Shown here: positions 2,567-21,200 of the stretch, piece by piece
Numbering within the stretch: position 1 is the first letter of the stretch
Layout: each line of letters starts with the position of its first letter
DNA from: an uncultured Bacteroidales bacterium
Lineage (GTDB): Bacteria; Bacteroidota; Bacteroidia; Bacteroidales; Paludibacteraceae
DNA length: 41,022 nt
Direction of reading: 5' to 3'
Assembly (NCBI GenBank): GCA_902762355.1
Contig: CACWNR010000027.1
Span: 1-41,022, forward strand
Notes under the pieces: generated by a model
Told to the model about the DNA's origin: nothing
Database searches by the model: none
Seen by the model: only the letters and a program-made list of their open reading frames with translations
Program-made: the position numbers and the translations under genes

Positions 2567-2598
2567 TAGGGATATGTCAAAAAAAAGCAGTAACTTTG
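2567..2598 (+). promoter_or_regulatory. Promoter of the symporter-NRPS operon
   Basis: -7 TAACTTTG at 2591-2598. The -33 position (2567-2570) is a weak TAGG, but ATATGTC at 2572-2578 is in the same place as in the promoters of both giant genes. Confidence 0.6.
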
Positions 2599-2623
2599 CC
2601 GCGCAAAACTAACAAGCATACTT

Positions 2624-3988
2624 ATGGAACAGTCCAAGAACTCGGGTTTTAATTCCAAATGGGGTGTTATCTTAGCCGCTGCAGGCAGTGCTATCGGTTT
2701 GGGAAACATCTGGAAATTTCCTTATGAGGCAGGTCAGAACGGTGGTGGTGCCTTTTTGTTAGTGTACCTCTTATGCGTCATACTTTTCGGCATGCCGCTC
2801 TTGATGACGGAGATCCTGATCGGTCGCAAGGCAGGCAAATCGACGTTCTCTGCTTTCCGCGCTATCAGTGGCAATAACCGCTGGCAGTGGTTAGGGTGGT
2901 GGTCGGCTCTGACGGTACTGATCCTCACGGGGTTCTATTTCGTAGTGACGGGCTGGTGCGTGAACTACCTCTACGAGGCGGTCGTTAACTCGTACGCAGG
3001 CATGGGCACGGACGAGTTGCTCACGCATTTTAACGCCAATATGTCGAATGCGCCGAAGATGATCCTCTGCGCTATCATTCCGGTGTTGTGTACCGCCGCT
3101 ATCCTGTGGTTCGGTGTCAGCAGCGGTATAGAGCGGCTGAGTAAGATCCTGATGCCGCTTCTGCTGCTGATGATGATTTTGATGACCATCCGCGTGCTGC
3201 TGTTAGAGGGCAGCGGAGAAGGACTCAAGTTCTTCTTCCATCCGGATTTCTCGCATATCACACCTTCGGTCTTTATGGAAGCCGCCGGTCAGTGCTTCTT
3301 CAGCCTCTCGGTGGGTCTCGGTCTGATGATTACCTATGGCGCCTATATGCCGAAGGAACAGGATGTGACCAAGACGTCATTCCAAGTCATCCTCCTCGAT
3401 ACCTTGGTAGCCGTCCTGGCAGGTGCGATCATCTTCCCGGCGGTGTTTGCGTTTGGTTTTGACCCGGCGGAAGGTCCGCAGTTAGTCTTCGTCGTCCTGC
3501 CGGCAGTCTTGCAGCATATGTCTTTCGCATGGCTCAGCGGCGTGGTCTTCTTTACGCTGCTGTTCATCGCTGCGCTCACCTCGACGATATCCTTGATGGA
3601 GGTGATTGTAACGAGCATTATGGAGATGAGCCGCGGCAAGCTCAACAGGCATCATAGCGTGCTGATCGCTACTGCGGTAATCTGCGTTTTTGTGGCGATT
3701 TATGTGCTCTCGATGACCGGCGCATGGAGCGGTCTGCAGATATGCGGACATAACCTCTTTGACCTAAGTGATACTCTCGTGACGAACTACATGATGCCGT
3801 TTAGCGCATTAGCTATGTCGCTGTTCATCGGCTGGTTCATGCCGTTCCAGGACAATGACCTGGTGCCGCATAGCCAGAAACGATACAAGCAGTGGCTTCG
3901 TCCGGCATTCGTCTTCGCACTCCGATGGCTTGTACCCATCGCTATCGTGCTCATCTTCCTGAACGGTATAGGTGTCTTTAACTTATGA
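2624..3988 (+). CDS. Sodium-dependent amino-acid symporter, NSS/SNF family
   Basis: The N-terminus (WGVILAAAGSAIGLGNIWKF, then PYEAGQNGGGAFLLVYL) is the TM1 signature of the neurotransmitter:sodium symporter family, which takes up amino acids or related amines with Na+. About 11-12 hydrophobic segments follow, and the length of 454 aa is normal for bacterial members such as MhsT or TnaT. The unwound TM1 stretch SAIGLGN is intact. The substrate cannot be assigned. It is the first gene of an operon and overlaps the next gene by 4 bp (ATGA). Placement between a decarboxylase-like gene and an NRPS suggests it supplies or recovers an amino acid, or a product, of one of them. Confidence 0.92.
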   Translation: MEQSKNSGFNSKWGVILAAAGSAIGLGNIWKFPYEAGQNGGGAFLLVYLLCVILFGMPLLMTEILIGRKAGKSTFSAFRAISGNNRWQWLGWWSALTVLILTGFYFVVTGWCVNYLYEAVVNSYAGMGTDELLTHFNANMSNAPKMILCAIIPVLCTAAILWFGVSSGIERLSKILMPLLLLMMILMTIRVLLLEGSGEGLKFFFHPDFSHITPSVFMEAAGQCFFSLSVGLGLMITYGAYMPKEQDVTKTSFQVILLDTLVAVLAGAIIFPAVFAFGFDPAEGPQLVFVVLPAVLQHMSFAWLSGVVFFTLLFIAALTSTISLMEVIVTSIMEMSRGKLNRHHSVLIATAVICVFVAIYVLSMTGAWSGLQICGHNLFDLSDTLVTNYMMPFSALAMSLFIGWFMPFQDNDLVPHSQKRYKQWLRPAFVFALRWLVPIAIVLIFLNGIGVFNL

Positions 3989-5493
3989 AACGATTTACGT
4001 CCGTACATATATTAGCGGCTCTCTTCCTCCTGTTAGGCATGGGAGTGCAGACGTACGTGTCCTATAGTAGGGCGCGGTTCCGTTTTCAGGAGAAGACGGA
4101 ACTCGAGATGCAGATCGCCCAAGAGAAACTGCGTTTTGAACTGTACGACGCGCTGGATGCCAACGCTCAGCTGATAGAAGAGGTAAAGAGGAACCTGACG
4201 CACCCGGAGAATTTGTACAGTAAGACCAACGAACTCCTCAAGCGGTATCCGAATTTTTATTCCTGCTATGTAGTTTTCCCACCGTATTATTATCCGAAAA
4301 AAGGGGAGTGGTTTGGCTTGACTTCCTATCGTACGAAGGATTCGATAGTCTCCTGCCATTTTGGGGATGCCGAGCATGATTATTTTGAACGCGAGTGGTA
4401 TAAAGGAGCCGTGCAAAACAACGCAGGCTATTGGAGCACCCCGTATATAGATGAAGATTTTGACGAACCGATCTATACCTATTCGAATGACGTGCTGGAC
4501 GAGAAGGGCGATCTGATTTGCGTCATAGGTATTGATTTCAGTTTGAAATGGATACACAATATGCTGGACCATTTCCGGCCATTCGAGGAGGCGGAGTGTA
4601 TGCTCTATAGTTCCAACGGAACGCTCCTTGCCGCCAGTGACGGAGCGCCGAAAGATGGAGAGTTGGATGATGGCTCATGGATCGTTTCCCGCAAGACTCT
4701 TCAACCGATAAATATCCGAATGGTCACTGCCGTTCCGCGTAGCCATGTTATCAAGAGTCTTCGTTTGGGCACCTTGTTGCCTTTGGGCGTGTTCGTGTTA
4801 GGTATCCTCGTGGTGGGCCTGTTGATCCGTCGTATTACACGGGATGAACAAGAGAACGCCCGTCTGGAGACGGAACAGGAAGTGATGTCGCACGAACTGC
4901 AGATAGCCCATGACATTCAGATGGGAATCCTGAAAGACGACAAGGAACGGATCAAAGCCCAAGCGAACGGAGATATTGAACTCCATACCTTCCTTGTCCC
5001 GATGCGCGAAGTGGGAGGCGACTTTTTTGACTTCCATCGCAAAGGAGACTTCCTCTGGTTCATCATCGGAGATGTGAGCGGCAAGGGCGTTCCGGCCGCT
5101 ATGTTCATGAGTGCTGCAGTGAACCTCTTCCGTGCAGCTGGTGTGAGAGCAACCTCACCCAAACAGATCATGGAAGAAATCAATACCGTCCTTAGCGAGA
5201 ACAACCCCTCCCTTACTTTCGTGACGGCTTTTGTGGGACGTCTGTGTATCCCTACAGGCGAACTGCTCTTCTGCAATGCCGGACACTGCGCGCCGCTTAT
5301 CTACTCCCCCGTAACCGGCAACCCATCACCCTTAACTCCTAACCCGAATATCCCGTTGGGATATGACGGCCGGTATTCGTTTGTGGAGCAAGGCTGCATG
5401 ATTGGCGAAGGAGAGAAAATCGTTCTTTACACTGATGGCGTGACCGAAGCGCGGAAGGGCAGGCCGAACCAACGGATGATATCACCCTCATGA
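3985..5493 (+). CDS. Cache-sensor SpoIIE/RsbU-type phosphatase, C-terminus frameshifted
   Basis: One transmembrane helix lies at about residues 7-27 and another at about 259-281. They bracket a roughly 230-aa extracytoplasmic Cache-like domain (WYKGAVQNNAGYWSTPYID near 137). A short coiled coil (about 283-310) leads to a PP2C-like SpoIIE domain with VGGDFFDF (near 343) and GDVSGKGVPAAMFM (near 361). Such proteins dephosphorylate an STAS antagonist on ligand sensing. The usual path from TDGVTEA to a final DDITLM is broken: after TDGVTEA (about 482-488) the frame ends within 15 codons, while AEGQAEPTDDITL lies just downstream in a different frame (5451-5489) that runs without a stop into the kinase. 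Roughly 50 residues and the frame are missing. The terminal metal-binding Asp motif is therefore lost from this polypeptide, which may be inactive. Confidence 0.88.
   Translation: MKRFTSVHILAALFLLLGMGVQTYVSYSRARFRFQEKTELEMQIAQEKLRFELYDALDANAQLIEEVKRNLTHPENLYSKTNELLKRYPNFYSCYVVFPPYYYPKKGEWFGLTSYRTKDSIVSCHFGDAEHDYFEREWYKGAVQNNAGYWSTPYIDEDFDEPIYTYSNDVLDEKGDLICVIGIDFSLKWIHNMLDHFRPFEEAECMLYSSNGTLLAASDGAPKDGELDDGSWIVSRKTLQPINIRMVTAVPRSHVIKSLRLGTLLPLGVFVLGILVVGLLIRRITRDEQENARLETEQEVMSHELQIAHDIQMGILKDDKERIKAQANGDIELHTFLVPMREVGGDFFDFHRKGDFLWFIIGDVSGKGVPAAMFMSAAVNLFRAAGVRATSPKQIMEEINTVLSENNPSLTFVTAFVGRLCIPTGELLFCNAGHCAPLIYSPVTGNPSPLTPNPNIPLGYDGRYSFVEQGCMIGEGEKIVLYTDGVTEARKGRPNQRMISPS
5310..5345 (+). 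repeat. In-frame CCTAACCC-type stutter in the phosphatase
   Basis: GTAACCGGCAACCC, then CATCACCCTTAACTCCTAACCC, encodes SPVTGNPSPLTPNPN, inserted before the conserved NIPLG of the SpoIIE domain. The same wording occurs in giant protein 1 near 19526. Confidence 0.6.
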
Positions 5494-5912
5494 CGATTCA
5501 AAAGACAAGCCCCGTCCAGCCTGTGACGCTGCGCGTGCCTTGCCACGAAGACCAATGGCCTGTCCTGCGAAAGGCAATCCATACCTTTGGATTATGCAAC
5601 GGTATAGACAAGAAAGGACTCAAAAAACTCGAAGTGGCAGCCGAAGAAGCCATCGTGAATATTCTTCATTATTCGCAAGCTTCTGAGATAGAATTAAAAA
5701 TGAAAAATGAAAAATTAAAAATTATTCTCACCCTCACGGATAACGGAATCGCTTTTGATCCCACCGAGCATGTGCCCAACGAGAAAGCAACCAACGAACG
5801 TCAGGTAGGAGGGCTGGGAATCCATCTCATCCGACAAATCGTTGATGAACTGCACTACGAGCGGAAGGAGAATAAAAACATCCTGCGAATGGTTAAATCG
5901 TTAAATTGTTAA
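5490..5912 (+). CDS. RsbW/SpoIIAB-type serine kinase (anti-sigma-like)
   Basis: This 140-aa HATPase_c protein has an N-box EEAIVNILHYS (about 52-62), a G1 box TDNGIAFDP (83-91) and a G2 box GGLGIHLI (107-114), the layout of GHKL-fold anti-sigma serine kinases. These phosphorylate an STAS partner, which is encoded next. An in-frame low-complexity insert (residues about 70-77, KMKNEKLK) interrupts a strand pair. The ATG overlaps the phosphatase stop, but the frame continues upstream as AEGQAEPTDDITL, the missing end of the phosphatase domain. The ancestral gene was therefore probably a phosphatase-kinase fusion now split by a frame break. No sigma factor is encoded in the operon, so the final target is unknown. 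Confidence 0.87.
   Translation: MTIQKTSPVQPVTLRVPCHEDQWPVLRKAIHTFGLCNGIDKKGLKKLEVAAEEAIVNILHYSQASEIELKMKNEKLKIILTLTDNGIAFDPTEHVPNEKATNERQVGGLGIHLIRQIVDELHYERKENKNILRMVKSLNC
5691..5728 (+). repeat. In-frame ATGAAAAATGAAAAATT stutter in the kinase gene
   Basis: AT-rich word repeat (AAAATGAAAAATGAAAAATT) adding about 8 lysine-rich residues between conserved strands of the HATPase domain. Composition is sharply unlike the flanking codons. Confidence 0.6.
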
Positions 5913-5930
5913 ATTTTTAAATCGTTAATA
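5891..5930 (+). repeat. GTTAAATC stutter at the kinase stop codon
   Basis: GGTTAAATCGTTAAATTG followed by TTAAATTTTTAAATCGTTAA spans the last codons and the gap to the STAS gene. It supplies the kinase's final residues (VKSLNC) and its stop. Confidence 0.6.
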
Positions 5931-5946
5931 AAACTTTTTTACCAAT

Positions 5947-6249
5947 ATGAAAATCAACATTATTCCCAATGAGAAAGAGACTCGTGTTTGCCTGATCGGC
6001 GAACTCGACACGACAGTTACCACAACCCAAGTAGAGGACTTGAACCAAGTGTTGGCGCTTGCCGACAAAGCGCTGGAGATCGATTGTGAGGAGCTGGAGT
6101 ATATCTCTTCTGCCGGCTTGCGATTCTTCATGCAACTCAAACGCGAGTCCGAGGCCAAAGGCGGTTCCATCCGCATTACCCACCTCAACGAGGACGTGAA
6201 TGATATCTTCCGCATGAGCGGTTTTCATAATCTTTTTACAATAGAATAA
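5947..6249 (+). CDS. STAS-domain anti-sigma factor antagonist
   Basis: This 100-aa single STAS domain resembles SpoIIAA/RsbV, with GELDTTVT early and the phospho-acceptor loop YISSAGLRF (about 52-60, Ser54/Ser55). In such modules the kinase phosphorylates this serine and the SpoIIE phosphatase removes the phosphate; the unphosphorylated form sequesters the kinase. All three components lie in order here. The stop is 1 bp before the NRPS start, so translation is probably coupled. An STAS protein directly ahead of an NRPS suggests that the switch controls NRPS output or transport, but no direct link is visible. Confidence 0.9.
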   Translation: MKINIIPNEKETRVCLIGELDTTVTTTQVEDLNQVLALADKALEIDCEELEYISSAGLRFFMQLKRESEAKGGSIRITHLNEDVNDIFRMSGFHNLFTIE

Positions 6250-6250
6250 T

Positions 6251-9200
6251 ATGGCACACTTAATCGAATACTTCAAAAAACACGTAGCCGAGCGACCGAA
6301 TGATATCTTCTGCATCGCCGGTGACAAACGTATCACGTTCGCAGAGGCGGATCGTTTGACGGAGACTCTCGATCCTCAATACGTCACCCGTTGCGGCGAC
6401 AAAGTGGCAGCGTTTATCGTGCCTCGTAATGAACTGATGGTACTCGTACCTCTCGCTATCGCCAAGGCAGGCCTGACCGCTATGCCGCTCGATGGCTCTT
6501 ATCCCGAAGAGCGACTGAACTACATGCGGGAAGATGCCGCCAAGTACGATGGCGACGAGGCTTTTGTGCTGCTCTATACCTCCGGTACAACCGGCATCCC
6601 CAAGGGCGTCATGCTCAGCGAAGCGAACATCTTGGCATTCATGGATTTTCATGTGCAGGCCATCGGCTTGACTCCGCAAAGCAAGTACGCCACCTACGCC
6701 GGTTACGGCTTCGATGCCTTCCAGATGGACCTGTGGTGCTGCGTCAAAGCAGGTGCGACCATCTGCATCGTAGGCGACGAGATCCGTTTTGACCTGGAGG
6801 GGCTCAACCAATATATCCAAGACGAGCACATTACCCACTGCTTTATGACCACCCAGATGGCAACGCAGCTCGTGCTCAATTATCCGGACATCCCGGGCTT
6901 GCAGTGGCTCGGTACGGGCGGCGAGAAACTTATCAGCCTCGATCCGCCTTCGTATAAGTTGATGAACTGCTACGGCCCGACAGAGTGTACCGTCTATGTC
7001 AGCAGTTTTTTCGTGACCCAAAACGAACCCAATATACCTATCGGCAAAGCCAATACGAACGGTACGCGACTCATCGTCGTGGGGCAGGACGGAAAAGAAG
7101 TACCGACCGGCACGGACGGCGAGCTCTATGTAGCCGGACCGCAGGTGTCGCTCGGTTACCTCAACCAGCCCGAGAAGACCGCAGAGGTGTTTGTGGAATG
7201 GAACGGCTTGCGTTGCTACAAAACCGGCGACATCGTTCACTACCGCGAGGACGGAAACATCGAGTTCGTCGGCAGACGCGACGGACAGGTGAAGATCCGT
7301 GGTTTCCGTATCGAACTCAAAGAGGTCGAAGCCATCATTCGCGAGTTCCCCGGCATCAAGGATGCTACCGTACAGGCCTTCGATTACCCGGATGGCGGTA
7401 AGTTCATCGCTGCCTATGTCGTCAGCGACGAGAAGATCAATATCGACGAACTCAACGCCTTTATCGGCGATAGCAAACCGCCTTATATGGTGCCTGCGGT
7501 AACGATGCAGATTGACGCTATACCGCTCAACCCGAATCAGAAAGTCGATAAACGGGCGTTACCTAAACCCGAGGCACCGAAACCTGAAGTAGAGGAGGCT
7601 GTGGCTGCGGCTCCGCTGAATGTCTTGGAGCAGGAACTGCATGACATCATCGCGAAGATCGTCAATATGGAGGAGTTCGGCATCACGACCGACCTGCGTT
7701 ATATGGGTCTCTCCTCTATCGCTGCCATCAAGTTAGCAACCCAGATCTTCAAGCGTTTCGGCGTCCAACTCGATGCCAAACAGATGACCAAAGGCATCAC
7801 GTTGCAGGCCATCGAGAATGAGATTCTTGCTGCGATGTTAGGCGAGAATCGATATACCGAAAATGAAAAATCTCAAATTTCCATACCTTCAGATCGTGCC
7901 CTTGGGCAAAGAAATGTCCAATCTCAAATGAGCGAAGCTCCTCTAAGCTTTGCTCAACTCGGTGTCTATTTCGAGTGCATGAAGAACCCGACATCGACTC
8001 TCTATAACGTGCCGATCTGTACTCAGATGCCTTTGGAGGTAGAGACGGAGGCGTTGCGGCAAGCGGTCCGCAAGGCGGTGCTTAACCACTCTGAGCTCTT
8101 TGTGCATTTCGCTACCCAAGAAGCTAATGTCATCCAGACCATCGACGAACAGATGATGAACGAGGCGCATATCGACGTGCCCGAGAAGGAACTCGAAGAA
8201 GCACAGATGGATGCGTTCAAGCATGAGTTCGTGCAACCGTTCAACCTGCAGAAAGACCTGCTTTTCCGTTTCGTCATCGTGCGCACGGAGAAGAACCTGT
8301 ATCTGTTGAGCGACATTCACCACCTCGTTTGTGACGGTGCATCGTACGACCTCCTCATCCATGAGATCTGCGACTTGCTGGAAGGCAAAGAGATAGAACC
8401 CGAGATGTGCTCGTATCCGCAGTTCGTGGCGGAGCAGAAAGCCGCTGAAAATGGCGAGTCCTTCAAAGCCGCTAAGGATTTCTTCGCCGAGCGTCTCACC
8501 GGCATCGAGAGCGTCACCGAGATCCAACCGGATCTCACCAACGCCCTGCCGCAAGGCGAGAACGGACGCGTGTGCGTACCTTTTGATATGCAGACAGCGG
8601 AGAAATACGCTGCGCAATTAGGCGTGACGCCGGCAGCTGTGCTCCTTAGTGCCGTCTATTATTCCTTGGCACGTTTTGCAGGAACAGATGATGTCTGCAT
8701 CACCACCATCTCCAACGGACGAAGCAACCTGCGGGTGAACAACACCATGGGAATGTTCGTCAACACCCTTGCGCTGACCACCAAGATAGCGAACCAGACG
8801 GTTGAGGAGTTCGTCCGCGAGAACGCGCAGTCCTTCGAGCAAACGCTCGCACACGAGGATTATCCCTTTGCACGCGTTGCGGCGGATTATGACCTGAAGG
8901 CGGAGATCATGTTCGCTTACCAGATGGGCGTGCTGAGCAACTATAGCGTCTTCGGCAAACCCGTTTTTGCCGACGAGACCATGGAGCAGAACGTGCCGAA
9001 ATTCAAGATCGCGTTCTATATCATGCCGATGGACGGCGTGCCGTCTATCGCCGTTGAGTACGACAACGGATGGTACAGCGAAGCGCTGATTACGAACCTC
9101 GCGCAGTCGGTAGCAAATGCCGTGCTGGCTTTTGCGGCAAACACTAACGCATCTCTGCGTGCCATCTCGCTTCTTAATAAAGCGCAGACAGCGGTGCTCG

Positions 9201-12094
9201 ACTCGTTCAACCAGACCGAGGTGCCTTATGACGACACCCAGACCATCGTCTCGCTCTTCCATAAGCAAGCGGCTGAGACGCCCGATAACCTTGCCGTCGT
9301 TTATCACGACGTCCGTCTGACCTACAAAGAGGTGGATGAGCAGACGGACGCCATCGCTGCACGGATCATAGAGGTCATTGGCAACGATACGAAAGAGAAA
9401 GTTGTTTCTATCCTCATCAACCGTTCCGAATGGATGGTAGTCGCTTCGTTGGCGGCCCTCAAAGCCGGTTGTGCGTACCAGCCGCTCGATCCGTCTTATC
9501 CGGCAGAGCGTCTGAACTTTATGATGAAGGATGCCAACGCAGCCCTTCTCATCGCCGATACCGACCTCCGTCCCATCGTCAACGAATACTCCGGACCGGT
9601 TCTGCTGACGAAAGAGTTAGAGAAATCACAAATTACAAATCATAAATCACAAATCACAAATATAAATCCACAGGATTTATTCATCCTCCTTTATACTTCC
9701 GGTTCTACCGGTGTGCCCAAAGGCTGCCAACTCGAGCACCGCAACCTTGTGGCTTTCTGTCATTGGTACCATCGCTACTATGACCTCCATGCAGGAGACA
9801 AAGTGGCGGCGTACGCTTCGTATGGTTTCGACGCGAACATGATGGATATGTACCCGGCATTGACGTGCGGTGCTGCCGTCTATATCATCGGCGAAGATAT
9901 TCGTCTGAACCTGCCCGACCTCAATCATTATTTCGAAGAGGAAGGCATCACCCATTCGTTCATGACGACCCAGGTGGGCTATCAGTTCGCGCAGAACTGC
10001 GACAATCATTCCTTAAAGCACTTGTCTGTGGGAGGAGAAAAACTCGCGACTATCGCGCCGCCGGCTAACTATCTGCTTCATAACGCGTACGGTCCGACCG
10101 AGTGTACCATCTTCACCACGACCTATCCGATACACGAGCAGGAGAAGAATATCCCTATCGGCAAACCGCTGGATAACTTCCGGCTATTCATCGTTGATAA
10201 GGACCTGCACCGTGTGCCTGTGGGTGCTACAGGCGAGCTGCTTGTCTCCGGTCCGCAAGTCAGCCGTGGCTACCTCAACCGTCCGGACAAGACCGCCGAG
10301 ACTTATATCGACTGGAATGGTCTTCGCTGCTACCGCACCGGCGACGTCGTGCGTTACCTGGAGGACGGAAATATTCAGTTTGTCGGAAGGCAGGACGGTC
10401 AGGTGAAGATCCGCGGTTTCCGTATCGAACTCAAAGAGGTCGAGGCGGTCATCCGTGAGTTCCCGGGCATCAACGATGCCACCGTACAGGCCTTTGATTA
10501 CCCCAACGGAGGTAAGTTCATCGCGGCATATATCGTCAGCGACAGCAAGATTGACATCCAGGCACTCAATGCCTTCATCCGTGATTGCAAACCGCCGTAT
10601 ATGGTACCGGCTTCGACCATGCAGATCGACGTCATTCCGCTGAACCAGAACCAGAAAGTGAACAAACGTGCCCTTCCGGCTCCGCAGCTCACCGACACCG
10701 ACCGCGACTACGTGGCGCCGGCTAACGACAACGAACGCCTCTTCTGCGACATCTTCGCATCGATCCTCAATCAGGATAAGATAGGTGCTACGGATAACTT
10801 CTTTGAACTCGGCGGTACGTCGCTCATGGTTACGCGTGTTATCATCGAAGCGGACAAAACCGGAAAGCATGTCGCTTACGGTGATATCTTCACCCATCCG
10901 ACGCCGCGTCTCTTGGCGCAGTTCCTGTCCGGTGACACGGATGAACAAACGGCCAATGACCAAGAGGAAGCTGGCTTCGATTATACCGGCATTGATGCCA
11001 TTCTCCAGCGCAATAACCTCAATACCTTCCTGCGCGGAGAGCGTCAGGAGTTAGGCAATGTGCTGCTCACCGGTGCTACCGGTTATCTCGGCATCCATGT
11101 ACTGCGCGAACTGATTGATTCGGACGCCAAGACCATCACTTGTCTTGTTCGCGGAAAAGACCAGCACGATGCGCAACGACGTCTGCGTAACTTGCTCTTC
11201 TACTATTTCGACCGGCGTTTTGATGAACTCTTCGGCACCCGCCTCTTCGTCGTCAACGGCGATGTGACAAACGATTTCAGTAATCAGTTATCAGATATCA
11301 GTATTCAGACCGTCTTCAACTGTGCAGCGAACGTCAAGCACTTCTCCAAGACCGACGACATCGAACAGGTGAACATCGGCGGCGCGGAGCGTTGTGTGGA
11401 GTTCTGTCTGAAGACCGGCGCACGGCTTGTACATATCTCCACCACTTCGGTCGGAGAGATATGGGTTGATCGCGGTGACGGCAAGGCAGTACCCGAACTG
11501 TCGGAACGCTTGTTGTACTTCGGTCAGTTCCTTGATAACCGCTATATGCGGTCGAAGTTCCTCGCTGAGCGTGTCATTCTCGAAGCGGTAGCTCGTCACG
11601 GGCTGAACGCTAAGGTCATGCGTGTCGGAAACCTCGCGGCGCGTAGCTATGATGGTGAGTTCCAGGCGAACTTCCAGACGAACAGCTACATGGGACGACT
11701 CAAAGTGTTCTCCACGCTCGGCTGCTGTCCGATAGACGAATACGACTCACCGGCGGAGTTCTCACCGGTGAACGAGACCGCCAAAGCGGTTGTAAACCAT
11801 ACCGACCTCTTGGGCGATATCCTCGCTGGCTTTGAGAAGATTGGCAAGTCCATCCGTTACGTGGAGGAAGACGAGTTCCAGCAAGCGATTCTCGAGGCCA
11901 GCAAAGACCCGAAGAAAGCCAGCCTCATGTCCGCTCTCTTGGCATACCAAGACATGACGCATGGACAGAAGGCGGTGACTATCGAGCGTGATAACCGCTA
12001 TACCTCCGCAGTCCTGCTCCGTTTGGGATTCCATTGGTCTGCACCGGATAGCGCGTATGTCAATCGTATGCTAACCGCAATTAGGATTCTTTGA
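6251..12094 (+). CDS. Dimodular NRPS, A-T-C-A-T-reductase, predicted peptide-aldehyde synthetase
   Basis: The 1947-aa protein contains an adenylation domain (about 1-440; YTSGTTGIPKG, YGPTE, KIRGFRIEL), a carrier (MGLSS, PPant Ser489), a condensation domain (about 565-985; HHLVCDG, His690-Gly696), a second adenylation domain (about 1000-1480; YTSGSTGVPKG), a second carrier (LGGTS, Ser1524) and a terminal thioester reductase (about 1595-1947; LLTGATGYLG near 1607, YMRSK Tyr1765/Lys1769). With no starter C domain, it should join two amino acids and release the dipeptide reductively as an aldehyde, the chemistry known for gut pyrazinone/dipeptide-aldehyde NRPSs. Specificity-pocket residues read by eye are DAMFLTCVYK and DAMFLVAIFK, suggesting hydrophobic substrates. 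Domain A1 lacks about 30-35 residues between the A2 and A3 cores (after ERLNYMREDAA) compared with A2. The two A domains share near-identical DNA around 7276 and 10396. No PPTase is visible nearby. Confidence 0.93.
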   Translation: MAHLIEYFKKHVAERPNDIFCIAGDKRITFAEADRLTETLDPQYVTRCGDKVAAFIVPRNELMVLVPLAIAKAGLTAMPLDGSYPEERLNYMREDAAKYDGDEAFVLLYTSGTTGIPKGVMLSEANILAFMDFHVQAIGLTPQSKYATYAGYGFDAFQMDLWCCVKAGATICIVGDEIRFDLEGLNQYIQDEHITHCFMTTQMATQLVLNYPDIPGLQWLGTGGEKLISLDPPSYKLMNCYGPTECTVYVSSFFVTQNEPNIPIGKANTNGTRLIVVGQDGKEVPTGTDGELYVAGPQVSLGYLNQPEKTAEVFVEWNGLRCYKTGDIVHYREDGNIEFVGRRDGQVKIRGFRIELKEVEAIIREFPGIKDATVQAFDYPDGGKFIAAYVVSDEKINIDELNAFIGDSKPPYMVPAVTMQIDAIPLNPNQKVDKRALPKPEAPKPEVEEAVAAAPLNVLEQELHDIIAKIVNMEEFGITTDLRYMGLSSIAAIKLATQIFKRFGVQLDAKQMTKGITLQAIENEILAAMLGENRYTENEKSQISIPSDRALGQRNVQSQMSEAPLSFAQLGVYFECMKNPTSTLYNVPICTQMPLEVETEALRQAVRKAVLNHSELFVHFATQEANVIQTIDEQMMNEAHIDVPEKELEEAQMDAFKHEFVQPFNLQKDLLFRFVIVRTEKNLYLLSDIHHLVCDGASYDLLIHEICDLLEGKEIEPEMCSYPQFVAEQKAAENGESFKAAKDFFAERLTGIESVTEIQPDLTNALPQGENGRVCVPFDMQTAEKYAAQLGVTPAAVLLSAVYYSLARFAGTDDVCITTISNGRSNLRVNNTMGMFVNTLALTTKIANQTVEEFVRENAQSFEQTLAHEDYPFARVAADYDLKAEIMFAYQMGVLSNYSVFGKPVFADETMEQNVPKFKIAFYIMPMDGVPSIAVEYDNGWYSEALITNLAQSVANAVLAFAANTNASLRAISLLNKAQTAVLDSFNQTEVPYDDTQTIVSLFHKQAAETPDNLAVVYHDVRLTYKEVDEQTDAIAARIIEVIGNDTKEKVVSILINRSEWMVVASLAALKAGCAYQPLDPSYPAERLNFMMKDANAALLIADTDLRPIVNEYSGPVLLTKELEKSQITNHKSQITNINPQDLFILLYTSGSTGVPKGCQLEHRNLVAFCHWYHRYYDLHAGDKVAAYASYGFDANMMDMYPALTCGAAVYIIGEDIRLNLPDLNHYFEEEGITHSFMTTQVGYQFAQNCDNHSLKHLSVGGEKLATIAPPANYLLHNAYGPTECTIFTTTYPIHEQEKNIPIGKPLDNFRLFIVDKDLHRVPVGATGELLVSGPQVSRGYLNRPDKTAETYIDWNGLRCYRTGDVVRYLEDGNIQFVGRQDGQVKIRGFRIELKEVEAVIREFPGINDATVQAFDYPNGGKFIAAYIVSDSKIDIQALNAFIRDCKPPYMVPASTMQIDVIPLNQNQKVNKRALPAPQLTDTDRDYVAPANDNERLFCDIFASILNQDKIGATDNFFELGGTSLMVTRVIIEADKTGKHVAYGDIFTHPTPRLLAQFLSGDTDEQTANDQEEAGFDYTGIDAILQRNNLNTFLRGERQELGNVLLTGATGYLGIHVLRELIDSDAKTITCLVRGKDQHDAQRRLRNLLFYYFDRRFDELFGTRLFVVNGDVTNDFSNQLSDISIQTVFNCAANVKHFSKTDDIEQVNIGGAERCVEFCLKTGARLVHISTTSVGEIWVDRGDGKAVPELSERLLYFGQFLDNRYMRSKFLAERVILEAVARHGLNAKVMRVGNLAARSYDGEFQANFQTNSYMGRLKVFSTLGCCPIDEYDSPAEFSPVNETAKAVVNHTDLLGDILAGFEKIGKSIRYVEEDEFQQAILEASKDPKKASLMSALLAYQDMTHGQKAVTIERDNRYTSAVLLRLGFHWSAPDSAYVNRMLTAIRIL
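7856..7935 (+). repeat. Stutter-type linker between carrier 1 and condensation domain
   Basis: AAATGAAAAATCTCAAATTTCC and a later CCAATCTCAAATGAGCG give a polar linker (TENEKSQIS ... NVQSQMSE) between two GC-rich domains. It resembles other stutters here but is more degenerate. Confidence 0.4.
9622..9668 (+). repeat. CAAATCA stutter inside NRPS adenylation domain 2
   Basis: Five or six imperfect copies of a 7-8 bp word (AAATCACAAATTACAAATCA) encode KSQITNHKSQITN at about residues 1126-1138, just before the A3 core. The frame is kept. The word family recurs at 19109 in giant gene 1. Confidence 0.8.
11276..11308 (+). repeat. ATCAGTTATCAG stutter inside the NRPS reductase domain
   Basis: TTCAGTAATCAGTTATCAG, then ATATCAGTATTCAG, encodes FSNQLSDISIQ in the reductase. 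The neighbouring codons are GC-rich and unrelated. Confidence 0.65.
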
Positions 12095-12125: not shown

Positions 12126-12175
12126 GAAAAAATCGCTCTTCGGGGCGATTTTTTTTGTTTTTTTTGCATATGTCA
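12119..12175. repeat. 57-bp direct repeat, copy 1 (terminator plus -33 region)
   Basis: Identical to 23412-23468. It contains a UUCG-loop terminator and runs into the -33 region (TTTGCATATGTCA) of the following giant gene. Confidence 0.9.
12127..12157 (+). terminator. Rho-independent terminator of the NRPS operon
   Basis: A 10-bp stem (AAAAAATCGC with GCGATTTTTT) is extended by a T-G and a C-G pair around a TTCG tetraloop and followed by a T run. Confidence 0.9.
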
Positions 12176-12223: not shown

Positions 12224-15200
12224 ATGAAAAAACTCATTCTACCGGCAGTCCTTGTACTGCTAGCAATTTTTACTTCTCACTTGTCTCCGCTTATGGCGGC
12301 AGAGGCGAATGTGGACTTCGAAAACGAGAACAACTACGATGCCTATGCTGCCGGCAACGGAAAGATTCACGTGAAGGTGCTGCTCTTCAGCGAGCGCGGG
12401 TACGACCACAATGCGGGTCGTGGTAATAACCAGAGTCTGGGTAACGATCCTGCTCCAACGTGTCAGGCTACGGGTAGTCGTTTGCATACGAAACGTGTGA
12501 GCGGCGGCGAAGAGGCCATTTATCTCCACTACTGGGCAGACAACTACTACAACAATCCCAAAGCGAAGAGTCAGCATCAGTGGCCAAATGACAAGTGTTG
12601 CGTATGGGTGCAGCTCTGGGGCGGCGTGATCGAGTGTGCGAACACGTATGACGGCACCAAGCGCACGATCGTACCCGATGGCACCGTCGTGCAAGTAGAA
12701 CTGAAACGTAAGAAAGAGGGAAATTGGCTCACCTGGTTTGAGTTCGACTGGTATCCGCCTGAGGAGATGAACGAAGAGGAGTTTAGACTATACGTGACCT
12801 CCAATCACCATAAATGGAATGAAGCCGGCTTTGGGACGAAGACGCATGACTTAGGCTTGTTCTCCGGTGCAGATTCGGAGCAGGCACCAATTATCTCCGA
12901 CCCGTTCTTCTATGCGGCTAACGACAAAGGAGCAGCCGGATACGGCAAGTTAGCGTACGTCTATTCCTTAACTACGGACGTGCAGCAGTACTTCACTACG
13001 CAAGACGTCAATCCCCATATTCTCATGGAGCGTTCGGATATGCTGTTCGTAGATCCCGCCGATTCCGTGCAACACGGTTTCCGTACGTGCTTCTATGCTT
13101 TACGTGACGTCGATCAAGCAACATGGCGATGGGTTTGGTCGAACAAAATAGATATCCCCGCTTACCACAAGATACATAATTTCGAAGTCAAGCCATGGAT
13201 CTATCATCGTGAGGATATTGACAAATGGTATGAGAACAGCCGCTATAAAAACCTCACCTGGCAAATACACTACCCGCAGGAAGAGGATGTGATGGAAGGC
13301 GATTACATCGAGATACAACGGGCATACAATGCCGACTTTTCGGATGCACAGACCATCGACCTCGTGCAGATTTACTACGACTCTACGGCTACAGTCAACG
13401 ATATCCAGACCTATTCCTACGTGGATTCCACAGAGGCTGCTTGGTGGAACCCCGTAGAGAAAAGCTATAACATCTATTATCGTGTGCGGCGTACTTCCTC
13501 CTCTATCTGGGACTGGGAAGTTAATCCCTATTCGGCTGCAGACACTTGCACCGTGGAGCATAAATATAGCGTCAATGGATTCTTTAAGGTCGGTATCAAT
13601 CCTAACCCCGTGACCTACACACTCGACCCCGACTTTAGCAACAACAGAGCGGTGCATTTTGAAATTGATTTAGGCGCATTGTTACAGAATGCGGAACGTA
13701 CCCAAGATAAACCTGGATACTCGTTCTATTATTGGGATGATAACCAAAAACTCATCATCCGCAAGATAATGGTGGAGCAGCAGGATACCTTCCTCATTCA
13801 GATACCTAACGATAGCATCAAAGCGGCGATTAGCAAACAGTTCTATTCTCCTAATGATGATACGTATAAGAAATTGGATTATCAGGTGTACTTGACCGAC
13901 TATGCCAGCACTCCTTGTACACACTACAAATACGAAGCGTATATTGATACGACCGGAGTGATTGTTAAGGATTTGAATAATTATGAATTCCTCATCCTTC
14001 CGATTGTAGAAGCCGCAGGCCCGGAGATCTACTATACTTCCGCTGCCAATATCAGTACTTTTGCCGGCACAGACAAAGAGTTTTCTGAATATGTCTTACT
14101 CACCTGGGATGCTACAGAGGGAGATGTCGGCACCTACTCGGTCGAGGCTCGCCCTGATAGCGAAAGCGGTTGGACGAAGCTCACCGAGGGCCTCAAACAG
14201 AACTGGTATCAGGATACATACGCCAACCCCTTGGATGCAGACCCATGGCAATACCGATTGACCATGTCCTATGAGTGCAACGGAAACGTGCTCACACGTA
14301 GTGTGGAAACCACCGGACGACGTAACCCTTACGGCAAAATCAGCGGACGAATCACCTATGCGGATGGCACAGGGTGCCCAAATATCGAAGTCAATGCTTC
14401 ACGCGTTTCCGACGGAGTAGTGCTACAGCGCGTGATGACGGACGAAGGCGGTTATTACCTCGTTGACAGCGTGCCCTATAGCGGCGATGCCCAGTATGCG
14501 ATCACCCCGGTTAGTCAGACCGCTGAGTTCCGGTACAACAACACCTCCGCCACCTTCGCATCCGTTACATTGTCCTTAGACCACTGCGTCGCTACCGGAA
14601 TAGACTTTGAGAATATCTCCTCCGTACGAGTGAGCGGACGTCTGCTCTATGAGAACAGTACGATTCCGGTTCGTGATGCGAACTTCCTCGTCAACGGACA
14701 GTTAGTGCGCGTAGGAGGGCATATCTACAAATCGAACGCTTCGGGTAACTTCGAGTTTATGGCGCCGAAAAACGCAGCCTTCACATTACAGGCGGTGAAA
14801 GAAGGGCACCGGTTCGCCGGAGACGGATTCGTACGCATAGAGGGCGACAGCCTGCTGACGCTGACTAAGGCGCTCGACGGTATCCGTATCTATGACCAAA
14901 CGAAAGTGCGCCTTATCGGCCGTCTCGCCGGTGGTGATATACAAGGCTCCAAACCGCTCGGTCATGGGTTGAGTACCAACTACCTGGGCGAGGACCTCAA
15001 AATGGTCTTCGAATTAGAGGGAGATAACATCTCGCAGATAGTGCATGTGCAGTCCGATCTGGATAAAGATACGATACAGCAATATGTGGACTCTACCTAT
15101 ACGCTCTTTGAGAAGAAGCGCATCACGATTATGCCGAACGTTACCACGGGTGAATACGCGGTGGATTTATACCCTGTACGCTATAAGATCACCCAAGCGA

Positions 15201-18200
15201 CGGCACGCGGTTATGCCAGCCTCTTCACAGACGGCAAAACCAGCGAGACACTCGACCTGAGCGATGCCGCCAAGCAGCATAAAGAGTCTATCTATAACAA
15301 CGATACCGTGCGCTACAACGAATCCTTCTCGATCACATACCATAGCCCGATACAAATCACCTGCAAGCAGTTGATTTATTCACGCGAGCTTGATTACTTC
15401 GGCGAGAAAGAGATGACGCGCAAAAACCTCAAAAACGAAACGGTGAACGTACCCTTGGCTACTAAGCGGAACGATGGTACATACGAATATCTATTCGGAG
15501 CGCCCGTCTTCGCTACAAAAGATTATTCGTTCCGAGTCACAGCACATGAGGACTATTACTACAACAACGATGAGATGTCCATCAAGCACGAAGAAGTGCG
15601 TATCCATGGCGGCAAACTCAAAGTCTATAACGGTCTGCATGACGACCGTAATACACAAGTCACTACCCACCAGTTGGACGAAAACGGTCAAGCTGAGATA
15701 ACGATACCCGTGGACTATGCCTCCTTCCTGAAAACAGACGAATCGGCACTGCGCGTACTGGACCTGAGTGTCGAATACCAAGGTGCCTATGTGGAGAAAC
15801 AAGCTGTGAGCGCGTACGTCACGGGTAATAAAGTGAAAGGACGCGACTTCGTTACGTCAACACACGGAGATATCGTCATCCTTGACATCTTGCGCGACCC
15901 GCCCGGATCACAGAGTTATGCCTTCGTTGAAGAGGGAACGACCTATAACTACAGCTATACCTATAACGTGGATATAGAGTTCGGTATGGTCCTCAACCTC
16001 GGTTACGGTGCTGAAGCAACTATGACGATGGGTACGGTAATGGGAGGATTAGGCGCAGGTATGTACGCAGGATATGTGGTGAACTATAGTAATATCATAA
16101 CTGCCCCTATTCCTATCTCCAGTAATTACCATTACCGAAAAGGCGGCACTTACACCTTCAAAACCAACCAGCGTATTCAGACCGATAACGAACGCTATTT
16201 CGTGGACCAGACCGGTAACGGTAAGTATTTCGTAGGGCAGGATGCCGATGTCTATATCGGTGCCATACAAAACCTCTATTTCGGTATAACGGACGCGGTT
16301 AAACCGATTGACTCGCTGACGTATGTTACTCTGGCTCCGCAATTCACTACCGGAACTATGCGACTTATCTCTTCCGGACGCGATGCACAAGGGAGACCCT
16401 GGTACCTCGTTATCGGTGAAGAGACAGAAATAGGCGAATATATCAACTCCACCTTCGTTTATACCCACGATTACATCGAGAACACATTGCTCCCGCAACT
16501 CGTACAAGACCGAAAAGACCTGCTCCTCACCTGCGACAGTACTACCGCACGTGCCATCGCGGAGGCTAAAGGTAAACCGGTCTATTGGAGCCGTGTACAA
16601 CCGACGGACAGCACCTTTGCTTCCGACTCAAGCTATGTGATGATGATCCCTACCGGAGCCGTTAAAAAACAATATATTGACGAAGTAGATGCTATCAACC
16701 GGCAGATCATCAACTGGGTTAGCAAAGCGTTTATCGCCAACGAAACCGAGAAGATAGAAGCGATCCATGGGCCTAACAAACAGAAAATCGGTACATGGAC
16801 TGTTAGCGGTGGAACACAAGTATCACACACCGAGGAGTATGACTACAGCGCAACCTATATGAAACGGATTGACTATCCGGGATTCTCGATTAGTACCAAC
16901 AAAGGCCTTGGACGCGACCTCGCACAATCCTTCGGAAGTGCTGTCCAGGATAAACTGACCAAGCTATTCAGCAATAACAGACCCGGATTAAATGTTCCGA
17001 TGGAAATCACCTCGCAAACACCTGCCGCTAAAATCAGATATGACTTCAAACCCATCTTGGACTTTGATTTCAACTACGACCCGAACCACACCACTACCCA
17101 TACGAAGAAAACCGGTTTCTATCTGGAGCCTGATAACTTCGGACATGAGGCTGTCAGTGTCTATCGCGTCGTGAAAAAGAAAGAAGGCTTTAATGCTGCT
17201 TCGGAAGATATTCGCGAATTCATTACGACGAACAGCAACGTCGGTAATCAATCCAACAACACGCCGGATAGTCTGTATGGCTCGTTTGTGTACTTCCTCG
17301 AGGGCGGTGCTTCGCGATGCCCGTACGAACCGGCTTATAGCACGAGATGGTACACTCCGGAATTACCGCTCTCTGCAGGAACATTGAACCTCGAGAACCA
17401 GAAACTGGATATCAACGTGCACGAGCGCGGTAACGTTCCCGCAGACCAACCGGCTGTCTTTACCCTTACCCTGACCAACGAGAGCGAAGGAGACTTCGGT
17501 GGTGCTGCGGCTCCTATCACCTTCTACCTCAAACAGAAAGAAGGTTCTAACCCCCACGGCGCACGGCTTATCATTGACGGTATGCCGCTCACGGGAGATG
17601 GACGAGCTATTAAGATAGCCCATAACGAAATCATCAAAAAAACGCTGCAGGTGTACGCAGGTGAAGGCTATGACTACGAGAATATCGTACTCGAACTGGC
17701 CTCACCGTGCGACCCGTACAACAAAGTGGCTTGTACGTTCTCCGTACACTACCTGCCTGTTTCTTGCCCGGTAAATATTACTACGCCGCACGACAAATGG
17801 GTACAAAACACGCTCTCGTCACAAGATTCCGTCGGCTATTACTTGCCCGTAAATATCGACGGATTTGATGTCAACTACAACGGATTTGACCATATCGAGT
17901 TCCAATACAAACTCGCTACTCAGTCCGATGACGCTTGGGTTAACCAGTGCAGCTATTACTACGATGACTCGCTCTATAACGCTGCTTCCGGCAATAAAGT
18001 GATGATCACTTCCGGCCGTATTGAGAACATCCGTTTCTACGGCGAACGTGACCCGATGGAGCAGCAGTACGACCTGCGGGCCGTCTCCTTCTGCCGCTAC
18101 GGCAACGGATTTATCAGCAGATCATCAACGGTATTGACCGGTATCAAGGACACCCGTCCGCCGCGTGTCTTCGGTCAACCTGAACCCGCCAACTCGATAC

Positions 18201-21200
18201 TCGGAGTAGGGGATAACTTAGTCCTGCGATTCAATGAACCGATTGCCGGTAACTACCTTGATGAGGATAATAACTTCCAACTCACCGGCATCACCAATGA
18301 GACAGGTATCACAACCGGGACCTCGCTTGTCTTCGATTATTTCACGGGAACCTATGCCGAGACGAAAGTCAACCGTAGCCTCTCGGAGTCCTTCTCTATC
18401 GACCTGCTTGTCAAGCCGACCGAGAAAGACCAAGACGAAGTCTTCTTCATGCATGGCGACGGAAAAGACCTCTTGCTCTTCGGTAAGACCGGCGATAATA
18501 AACTCTGGCTCTCCGTAGGCAACGACGTTCTCGTCAAGTCCCGTAAGCTGGACGCCCTGATGACCGCCTTCACCCGCGTCATCGTCACCTACGACCACGA
18601 GACCGGACTCGTCCGTTTCTATGCGGGAACCCAGGAGGTGACCGATCCTGCGCGCAACACACCGATCTTCTTCGAGCATCCTATTTCTGCTCCGCTGAAC
18701 TTCGGTTACGGATTTGTAGGCGGCATGCTGGAGGCACGTATCTGGACAAAAGCCCTCACTCCCGCAGAGATAGCGAACACCCATCTCAAGTACCTCACCG
18801 GCTTTGAGCGCGAGCTGCTCGCTTACTATCCGATGAACGACGGCGACGGCGAGGCGCTTACCGACAAGGCCAACGGCGCTACGCTCTTCCTGCATGGCGC
18901 TACGTGGAACTTCGAGAAGGGTATCTCCCTCCATATCCCCGCTACCGACTCTGTCGAGCTGGCAGGAGACCTCCTCGCTCGTTCGTCTATCCAGGATGAG
19001 ACGCTCATGTTCTGGTTCAAGACCAACTCCCAGTCCGGCAACCTCTTTACCGCTGCTTCCGGCTTCCGTCTTGCTCTCGAGAACGGCAACCTCGTCCTCT
19101 ATGACGGAAATTACCAATCACAAATCACAAATCACCAATGTGCCGAAGGCGCTTGGCATCACCTCGTCCTGACCATCAACCGAGTGTATAATAACGTTTC
19201 CCTCTTCTTGGATGAACAGATGGTACTCACGGTTCCTGCGGCTACCTTCGGTAGTATCAGCGGAAGGATGGTTCTTGGCGGCGGCGGATTCGAGGGTAAC
19301 ATCGACGAACTGGCTGTCTTCGAGCAAGCGCTGCCTAAGTCCTTTGTGGAGAACTACAGCCACATTTCGCCTTATGGCGATGAGATGGGTCTGATGGCGT
19401 ACCTGCCGTTCCAGGAGGCGAAGGAGAATGAGTCCGGCATCATCGAACTGGTCTTCTCCGTCAACGACCAGCGTCAGTTCAAGACCTCCGATGGTAAGAT
19501 CCTCCATAAGGAAGTGCCGCTCATACCCGTAACCGGTAACCCCTCGCCCATCTCCTCTCTTGCCGACAAGGCCAACTCCGCTCCTGTCCGGACGCAGGGC
19601 TTGCTGACCAAACTCAATTTCGATTGGTCGTTCAACAACGACGAGCTGCTCATCAACCTCAATATGCAGGATAAGGAGATCAACAAACAGACGATTTACG
19701 TGACCGTCCGCGATGTCGAGGACCTCAACGGTAACCCCATGGCATCGCCGGTTATGTGGACCGCTTTCGTCGATCATAACAGTCTCAAGTGGGAGGACGA
19801 CGACCTCGATCTGCATGTCCTCTACGGTCAGGAGACGGCACATACGGCTTACCGCGACTTCCAGATCATCAATAACTCCGGCAAGCGCCATCAATATACC
19901 ATTGAGTCCCTGCCGGATTGGCTCTCTGTCGATAACGCTTACGGCTCAATCGAACCGATGCAGGATAAGGCCATCCGCTTCTATTACAACACCGAGATGC
20001 CCGTCGGTCAATACATGGATATCGTCTATCTGACCGATGAGAACGGTCTCTCGGAACCGCTCGAAGTGGAATATACCGTCGAGGCAATACCGCCGTACGA
20101 CGAGATCAACAAAGGTCTCTACCCGCTTACCATGTCTGTCTGCGGACAAGTACGACTGACGCAACAGGGCGGAAGTACCGTCGTGGATTCAGACCCTGAC
20201 GACCGCGTCTATGTCCTCTATCGTCATGAGTGTGTAGGAATGGCGAATATCGAGTATGACAACCTCTCCAACTCCTCTGCCCTCTTCCTCACTATCTACG
20301 GCAACGAGGCGATGACAGGCAAGCCGCTCACCTTCCAACTCTGGCAGGCTTCGACCGGCAAGACACTCATCCTCTCCCCGGATCGTGACATTGTCTTCCG
20401 CTCCGGCGATGTGATTGGATGCAGCAACGAAGAACCTGTCATGCTCGTCACCTCCGGTTCGGAGACCCAGAATATCAACCTGCAGAAAGGATGGACCTGG
20501 ATCTCTACCAACCTCCGCCTCAATCCTGTCTCCGCTCCGCTGAATAAAGTGATGACGGTAGCCGAACCGTGGAAAGAAGGTGACCTCATCAAGAACCCCG
20601 AGAGCCGGCAGTTTAGTACCTATTCCGAGGTGATGGATATCTTCATGGGAACCCTCTCAGCGTGGGATTATACCCAGACCTATATGGTCTATTCCGCGCA
20701 AGATAATATCCTTCGTCTCAATGGAGAAAACCTCCTGGAGTATGAGATGAAACTGACCTTCCGCGGAAGTTCTGACGGTTCCGGTCAGTGGAGTCCGCTT
20801 CCGTTCTTGCTCAACCGCAACACCTCAGTCGCAGAGACCATGGCGGGCTATTATGAGTACGCTACTCCGGGAGATATCATCAAGAGCCATGACGCTTTTG
20901 CAACCTTCTCTGCGGACCGTAAATGGATAGGTAACCTCAAGACCATGCGTCCCGGTGAGGGCTATTTCCTCCGCCGTCTCGCGCCTACGGATGTCACCGT
21001 TCCGTTCTATAACCAGCCCGCAAGCGCAGGCGCACCGAAACGGTCTGTCATGCCGGATGCCCCGGAAGGCTTCCATACGTCCTCTGCGACCAACATGACG
21101 ATGATTGCCAAGGTGTCATACAGCGCAAGCGGTCTTACAGCAGAGCGGTCTTACAGTGATAACGGTCCTACAGCCGAAGGCGGTCAGACGCTGCGCGTCT

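Follow-up and report, generated by a model that had tools for sequence, protein, structure and literature searches.

The locus raises the question of what a complete partner-switching module controls when its genes lie directly 5′ of a nonribosomal peptide synthetase (NRPS) gene in a Bacteroidales bacterium. Accounts of NRPS regulation mostly concern transcription, and the position of a partner switch beside an NRPS suggests that an outside signal may control peptide production. The reading favored here, with a probability of about one half, is that the module is dedicated to the peptide biosynthesis operon, and that its STAS protein gates the operon's own output, most likely the NRPS.

Organization of the unit

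The window, that is, the whole stretch of 41,022 nucleotides analyzed, carries the following features:

2591–2599 (+): Bacteroidetes-type −7 promoter element TAACTTTGC, a pattern match 24 bp 5′ of the symporter start
2624–3988 (+): NSS/SNF family sodium-dependent symporter (PF00209, 198 bits), an optional member
3985–5493 (+): Cache (PDC) sensor and PP2C/SpoIIE phosphatase (PF22673, PF07228), C-terminus lost by frameshift
5455–5462 (+): site of the 88-bp gap seen against L032, L033, L035, L044 and L075 (DNA alignment, position approximate)
5490–5912 (+): RsbW/SpoIIAB-like HATPase kinase (HATPase_c_2; PF13581, 77.3 bits, cut-off 27.4)
5947–6249 (+): STAS anti-anti-sigma-type protein, 100 aa (PF01740, 49.2 bits, cut-off 22.6; TIGR00377, 58.6 bits, cut-off 53.45)
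6109–6111 (+): codon of STAS Ser55, the predicted phosphosite, invariant in 20/20 aligned STAS proteins
6251–12094 (+): NRPS with the order A-T-C-A-T-R, 1947 aa (domain and motif searches)
7934–9199 (+): condensation domain with HHxxxDG (PF00668)
9257–10276 (+): second adenylation domain (PF00501, best stretch 1003–1342)
11066–11788 (+): thioester reductase domain (NAD_binding_4; PF07993, 117.9 bits), with a 16-residue gap towards its end
12126–12155 (+): intrinsic terminator-like hairpin of 13 bp with a T tail, 3′ of the NRPS

Recomputation of the ORF coordinates and of the junctions (4-bp overlap, 4-bp overlap, 34-bp gap and 1-bp gap) agrees with the first-pass annotation, and searches with Pfam and NCBIfam models return the domains that it had assigned to all five ORFs (symporter, Cache-SpoIIE, HATPase, STAS and NRPS), the sensor of the phosphatase ORF being an MCP-like PDC/Cache domain. 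The single promoter and single terminator proposed at that stage fit the −7 element and the hairpin, although other consensus matches are present in the region: the −7 pattern, with the Bacteroidetes consensus, occurs 14 times in the window where 5.0 would be expected, sigma-70-like matches number 12 versus 8.3 in shuffles, and terminator-like matches 16 versus 8.6. The location of the −7 element 5′ of the symporter and of the hairpin 3′ of the NRPS makes it plausible that the genes from symporter to NRPS form one transcription unit. The proposed five-gene operon stands in its gene content and junctions, but not in the boundary between phosphatase and kinase, which form one ORF in the relatives.

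Upstream of the unit, positions 1348–2565 encode a PLP-dependent histidine-decarboxylase-like protein, with an apparent lipoprotein signal peptide, judged by eye; tblastn finds no match to it within at most 10 kb on each side in the best 80 of at least 326 loci. Downstream, two giant ORFs (12224–21232 and 23526–33155; 3002 and 3209 aa) flank a BspA-type leucine-rich-repeat protein.

Conservation of the linkage between switch and NRPS

The relatives considered here are the best 80 of at least 326 confirmed loci from a scan of a genome collection, with NRPS identity down to 42%, so that the set is biased to nearer relatives; all 80 are titled Bacteroidota, and many come from ruminant gut samples. 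Among the 66 relatives of this set with at least 3.5 kb 5′ of the NRPS, the window being excluded, 54 combine a switch match with a STAS gene in the 5 kb preceding the NRPS, on its strand (55/67 with the window), and the linkage persists down to a STAS identity to the window of 30%. In 61 relatives a STAS gene lies no farther than 5 kb upstream, and in 25 of these it ends no more than 130 bp from the NRPS start. The pair is absent upstream in 12/66: all the parts are present but farther off in L058 and L093, a full switch lies downstream in L061, only STAS is found in L073 and L101, only the phosphatase in L102 and a weak STAS trace in L057, and five loci (L062, L063, L069, L083 and L092) have no switch or STAS at all.

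Two further samples, drawn separately and possibly overlapping with the best-80 set, point in the same direction. Among 150 genomes of the window's family, 7 contain the NRPS (E up to 1e-250) and 15 give a switch match (E up to 1e-100), which for some covers the phosphatase part alone. The switch adjoins the NRPS on the same strand in 6 of the 7 NRPS genomes, the NRPS of one of them (G513) being itself split over two frames; the NRPS of the seventh (G429) is cut off by the contig end. A switch match thus occurs in 6/7 genomes with the NRPS versus 9/143 of the others (Fisher p 2.3e-6, uncorrected for kinship). The NRPS itself is patchy in the window's genus (4 of the 13 genomes listed). In the sample of 393 genomes of the order, 7 have an NRPS match above about 690 bits, with switch genes adjoining the NRPS in G000 (the window genome), G266, G357 and G255; in G375, G237 and G028, where the NRPS touches the contig end, the available sequence holds no switch.

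On these data chance neighbors are rejected, and the partner switch and the NRPS are borne out as a conserved unit. The contrary pattern, which the first-pass annotation had named as fatal to its proposal, is an NRPS that always occurs in relatives without the switch genes; it was looked for and is not what the genomes contain. The conserved co-occurrence that was to be sought for five genes holds for switch and NRPS, but neither for the symporter, found in only 8/80 loci (best 80 of at least 326; 9 with a tblastn fragment in L102) and rejected as a core member, nor for the separateness of phosphatase and kinase.

The prevailing order is switch-STAS-(porin-like, NSS or nothing)-NRPS. Other orders are NRPS-switch-STAS in L172 and L173 (genomes G428 and G510), where NRPS and switch overlap by 4 bp and the model does not match the sensor part, NRPS-STAS-switch in L159, and NRPS-switch-STAS-PPTase in L153, while in L160 a distant NRPS cluster with a GMC oxidoreductase, a PPTase-like gene, transporters and an aldehyde dehydrogenase ends in STAS-switch-STAS. 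The maintenance of the linkage across differing gene orders argues for function.

The switch proteins

The phosphatase and the kinase, described at first as separate genes, are a single ORF in 56 of the 58 relatives carrying both parts (the kinase is seen in 61 and the phosphatase in 60 of the best 80 of at least 326 loci), which rules out separate genes for the relatives. Within the 54 linked relatives of that set, the fusion is intact in 49, and the remaining five are split (L075 and L084) or partial, with the phosphatase only (L034) or the kinase only (L045 and L046). In L034, the phosphatase (8059–9678) is 47% identical and lacks the kinase part despite a close NRPS, as if the switch had been replaced or reduced.

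In the window, the 88-bp gap causes a frameshift. As a result, the kinase resembles an independent gene overlapping by 4 bp, and the phosphatase ORF loses the last PP2C Asp pair (D527 and D528 in L033 numbering), which is kept in 57/57 aligned rows with letters there. The same contig has other irregularities: alignment to relatives shows that the window NRPS is without 16 residues in the reductase domain and that its C-terminus is shorter and different; the rpsL gene at about 786–1090 (−) (match 798–1064), the only match in the genome, lacks its start and is frame-broken; and rpsG, recognized by eye at 360–470, contains an 11-residue tandem duplication. The source genome is 76% complete. Since a cell could scarcely live with its sole rpsL broken, the gaps are read as assembly errors; the 88-bp gap and the split are probably of this kind, real gaps being less likely, and the real unit would therefore probably comprise four genes, with phosphatase and kinase fused. 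A real gap in the phosphatase would leave the kinase of this strain without an opposing activity.

In the relatives, the residues expected of each activity are conserved. D346, D363, D484, D527 and D528 of the phosphatase, presumably the metal-binding Asp residues of PP2C enzymes, are invariant in 20 sequences, and so are E583, E584, N588, D615, G617, G638, G639 and G641 of the kinase, in the N-box and ATP-lid (L033 numbering). The STAS protein, above cut-off with both models, is a single domain with a phosphorylatable Ser, Ser55, which we take to be equivalent to the phosphorylation sites of RsbV and SpoIIAA. From these residues we infer the phosphorylation chemistry of the switch.

The Cache domain of the window has the sequence REWY at the RxWY motif, which we take to be an amino-acid motif of Cache domains; across relatives, the Arg is present in 20/58 rows and the Trp in 28/58, so that the motif is not conserved and amino acids are no more than a possible ligand. 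A different lead for a candidate ligand is AI-2, since the available text of a paper on rumen quorum sensing places SpoIIE proteins among dCache_1 signaling proteins in its discussion of AI-2 receptors (PMC9540692).

The NRPS and its predicted product

The NRPS contains the core motifs of an A-T-C-A-T-R enzyme of the AusA type (HHxxxDG, carrier, adenylation, and reductase Rossmann and YxxxK), with a 16-residue gap of doubtful origin in the reductase. The nearest solved chain is linear gramicidin synthase A for the second adenylation domain, and 6vtj and the AusA reductase 4f6l for the reductase domain. AusA, the aureusimine/phevalin synthetase, is likewise a dimodular A-T-C-A-T-R NRPS with reductive release; the window enzyme reaches 958 bits with the AusA model, whose cut-off is 2500, and differs in its occurrence in Bacteroidales, its linkage to a partner switch and a unit devoid of a PPTase gene. 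A gap between motifs in the first adenylation domain was considered as a possible defect and rejected, since L032, L033, L035, L044 and L036 have this short form as well. No confident substrate reading is obtained from the adenylation pockets.

The enzyme would join two amino acids and release the product reductively as an aldehyde. In the best 80 of at least 326 loci, 63 of the 73 relatives with the NRPS 5′ end inside the contig have an extra N-terminal condensation domain (HHxxxDG), compatible with N-acylated aldehydes as their possible products. The ten without it are the window clade (L032–L035, L044 and L075) and, outside it, L069, L101, L103 and L110. As the window clade lacks this starter domain, its predicted product is expected to retain a free amine and may cyclize to a pyrazinone, a conversion of aldehydes reported for gut products in the available part of PMC12327764; and, as the clade keeps the switch, the domain is not needed as the switch target. 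Reductive release to dipeptide aldehydes, predicted here, is also described for ruminopeptin-type gut NRPSs; ruminopeptin comes from Ruminococcus bromii, and a partner switch is unmentioned in the accessible text (PMC12327764).

Target of the switch and comparison with known systems

In the proposed mechanism, a membrane protein that normally unites the Cache sensor, the PP2C phosphatase and the RsbW-like kinase in one chain would set the phosphorylation of STAS Ser55, and STAS in one phosphorylation state would bind and gate the output of the same operon, most likely the NRPS, with an enzyme as the output and no sigma factor being freed. The same three activities, predicted here, make up RsbU/RsbW/RsbV of Bacillus, from which the window unit differs in having a biosynthetic enzyme as neighbor and no sigma factor; a domain search of the unit proteins returns no sigma-factor gene, and hence no nearby cognate sigma factor, as had been noticed at first sight. 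Direct control of an enzyme has published precedents, as far as the accessible parts of the sources go: STAS-type proteins directly control diguanylate cyclases, and SiaABC-SiaD of Pseudomonas aeruginosa, BgrV-BgrR and HsbA-HsbD resemble the present system in a PP2C phosphatase and a kinase acting on a STAS-like protein that in turn targets an enzyme, no sigma factor being needed (PMC8457831, PMC7647112). As SiaD is co-transcribed with its switch (PMC7278518), so the NRPS gene is coupled genetically to the STAS gene. The differences are that the outputs of those systems are diguanylate cyclases and the neighbor here is an NRPS, that SiaC belongs to DUF1987 and carries its phosphate on Thr whereas the window has a STAS domain with a predicted Ser phosphosite, and that phosphatase and kinase are fused in the window's relatives. 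Such a combination of phosphatase and anti-sigma-type kinase in one polypeptide is seen in Rv1364c of Mycobacterium tuberculosis, according to the part of the source available (PMC12143880), and the Rv1364c phosphatase 3ke6 is the best solved match of the fused L033 protein (55 bits, phosphatase part only); Rv1364c has a PAS sensor and a fused anti-anti-sigma domain, in contrast to the Cache sensor and separate STAS protein found here.

The invariant motifs, the unit free of sigma factors and the published control of enzymes by STAS-type proteins together make control at the protein level the best reading. Points against it are the switches without an NRPS, the moderate NRPS-switch correlation given below, the 12/66 loci without the pair upstream, the 5/54 with a split or partial switch, and a single origin of the linkage in the main set, which the tree test does not reject. 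If the favored reading is true, a conserved phospho-switch lets an outside signal act directly on the making of a reactive peptide aldehyde in Bacteroidales of the gut, and offers a handle for switching on clusters silent in culture, and the role of partner switches in bacteria without SigB-type sigma factors becomes a directly testable question.

Action on transcription, in which the kinase or STAS would control a sigma factor or regulator encoded elsewhere, with the NRPS operon as one target, is an unlikely alternative, albeit the strongest one. Canonical RsbU/RsbW/RsbV systems control transcription, in the part of the source available (PMC8256260), and in L155, a switch without an NRPS, an AraC-type regulator adjoins the STAS gene; however, the identified neighbor families, named from representatives and listed when they have at least three members, are transporters, a porin-like protein and a PPTase, with no regulator, and a search covering sigma factors other than the ECF type finds sigma region 3 in one protein of the 76% complete genome.

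Control of transport, whether precursor uptake or product export, with production affected only thereby, is rather improbable. Transport genes are common beside the NRPS, 34 loci having the porin-like protein and 24 a MATE exporter, both commoner neighbors than the symporter; in L110 (1608–3389) a MATE exporter directly 5′ of the NRPS is fused to an RsbW-like kinase domain, which could point to export and so counts against the favored reading, and NMT1-type binding proteins adjoin other switches. Nevertheless, no single transporter family is common to all the loci (best 80 of at least 326), and the short distance from STAS to NRPS noted above disfavors a transporter as the target.

Searches of the open-access literature, mostly titles and the starts of abstracts, yield no partner switch acting on an NRPS. 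A survey of rumen biosynthetic gene clusters reports 5,346 NRPS clusters in its available text, with no occurrence of SpoIIE (PMC8241843); the rumen quorum-sensing paper, as far as available, finds dimodular pyrazinone-type NRPSs in 13/981 genomes and describes no switch (PMC9540692); and BlmT, a sulfate transporter of the bleomycin cluster with an anti-sigma-antagonist domain, is presented in the accessible text with no NRPS switch (PMC7017467). Partner switches and AusA-like NRPSs are each known; their conserved combination does not appear in those open-access titles and abstracts, nor in the accessible text of these three papers.

The switch family beyond the NRPS

The switch module is not specific to NRPSs, and since relatives of it occur without an NRPS, the STAS target could be something else common to all. 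On the best tree, unlinked switches separate at least two large branches of NRPS-linked ones; a 72-row tree, built without L159, L160 and L154 because of their long branches or unusual composition, requires 4 label changes, of which supported branches force 2, and a 75-row tree needs 6, with 3 forced. One clade of linked switches has p-AU 0.134 in the 72-row test, which does not reject a single origin in the main set, and repeated independent origin is not retained. Distances between loci correlate with Spearman 0.37 for NRPS versus switch over 52 loci, and 0.86 for switch versus STAS, the moderate former value leading to rejection of strict co-evolution of NRPS and switch. Mere co-location, in which a general Bacteroidales switch module landed by the NRPS and travels along with it, would fit a single origin and the switches found without an NRPS, but is made highly improbable by the several gene orders, the 4-bp NRPS/switch overlap and the rarity of the switch match in family genomes without the NRPS.

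The window genome has, on contig 7, a second, intact fused switch with STAS (L146:294–4553), after which come genes for a RelA/SpoT-domain protein and for an APH-like kinase, with similar sets in G399, G400 and G521 and partial ones in G513 and G245, judged by the ORFs picked; STAS is fused to APH in L149, and probably also in L150 and L151. Such switches beside other enzymes count in favor of an enzyme output. It is a tentative proposal, held with less confidence than the reading for the operon itself, that these systems form a Bacteroidales class of Cache-PP2C-RsbW and STAS switches with interchangeable enzyme outputs and no sigma factors, in which STAS would directly switch the NRPS in response to an extracellular ligand, and sister branches would act on a RelA/SpoT-like synthetase or an APH-like kinase. 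None of the defence-system models matched the switch, STAS or NRPS; the RelA/SpoT-domain protein at L146 gives 53.6 bits to the candidate defence family PDC-S33.
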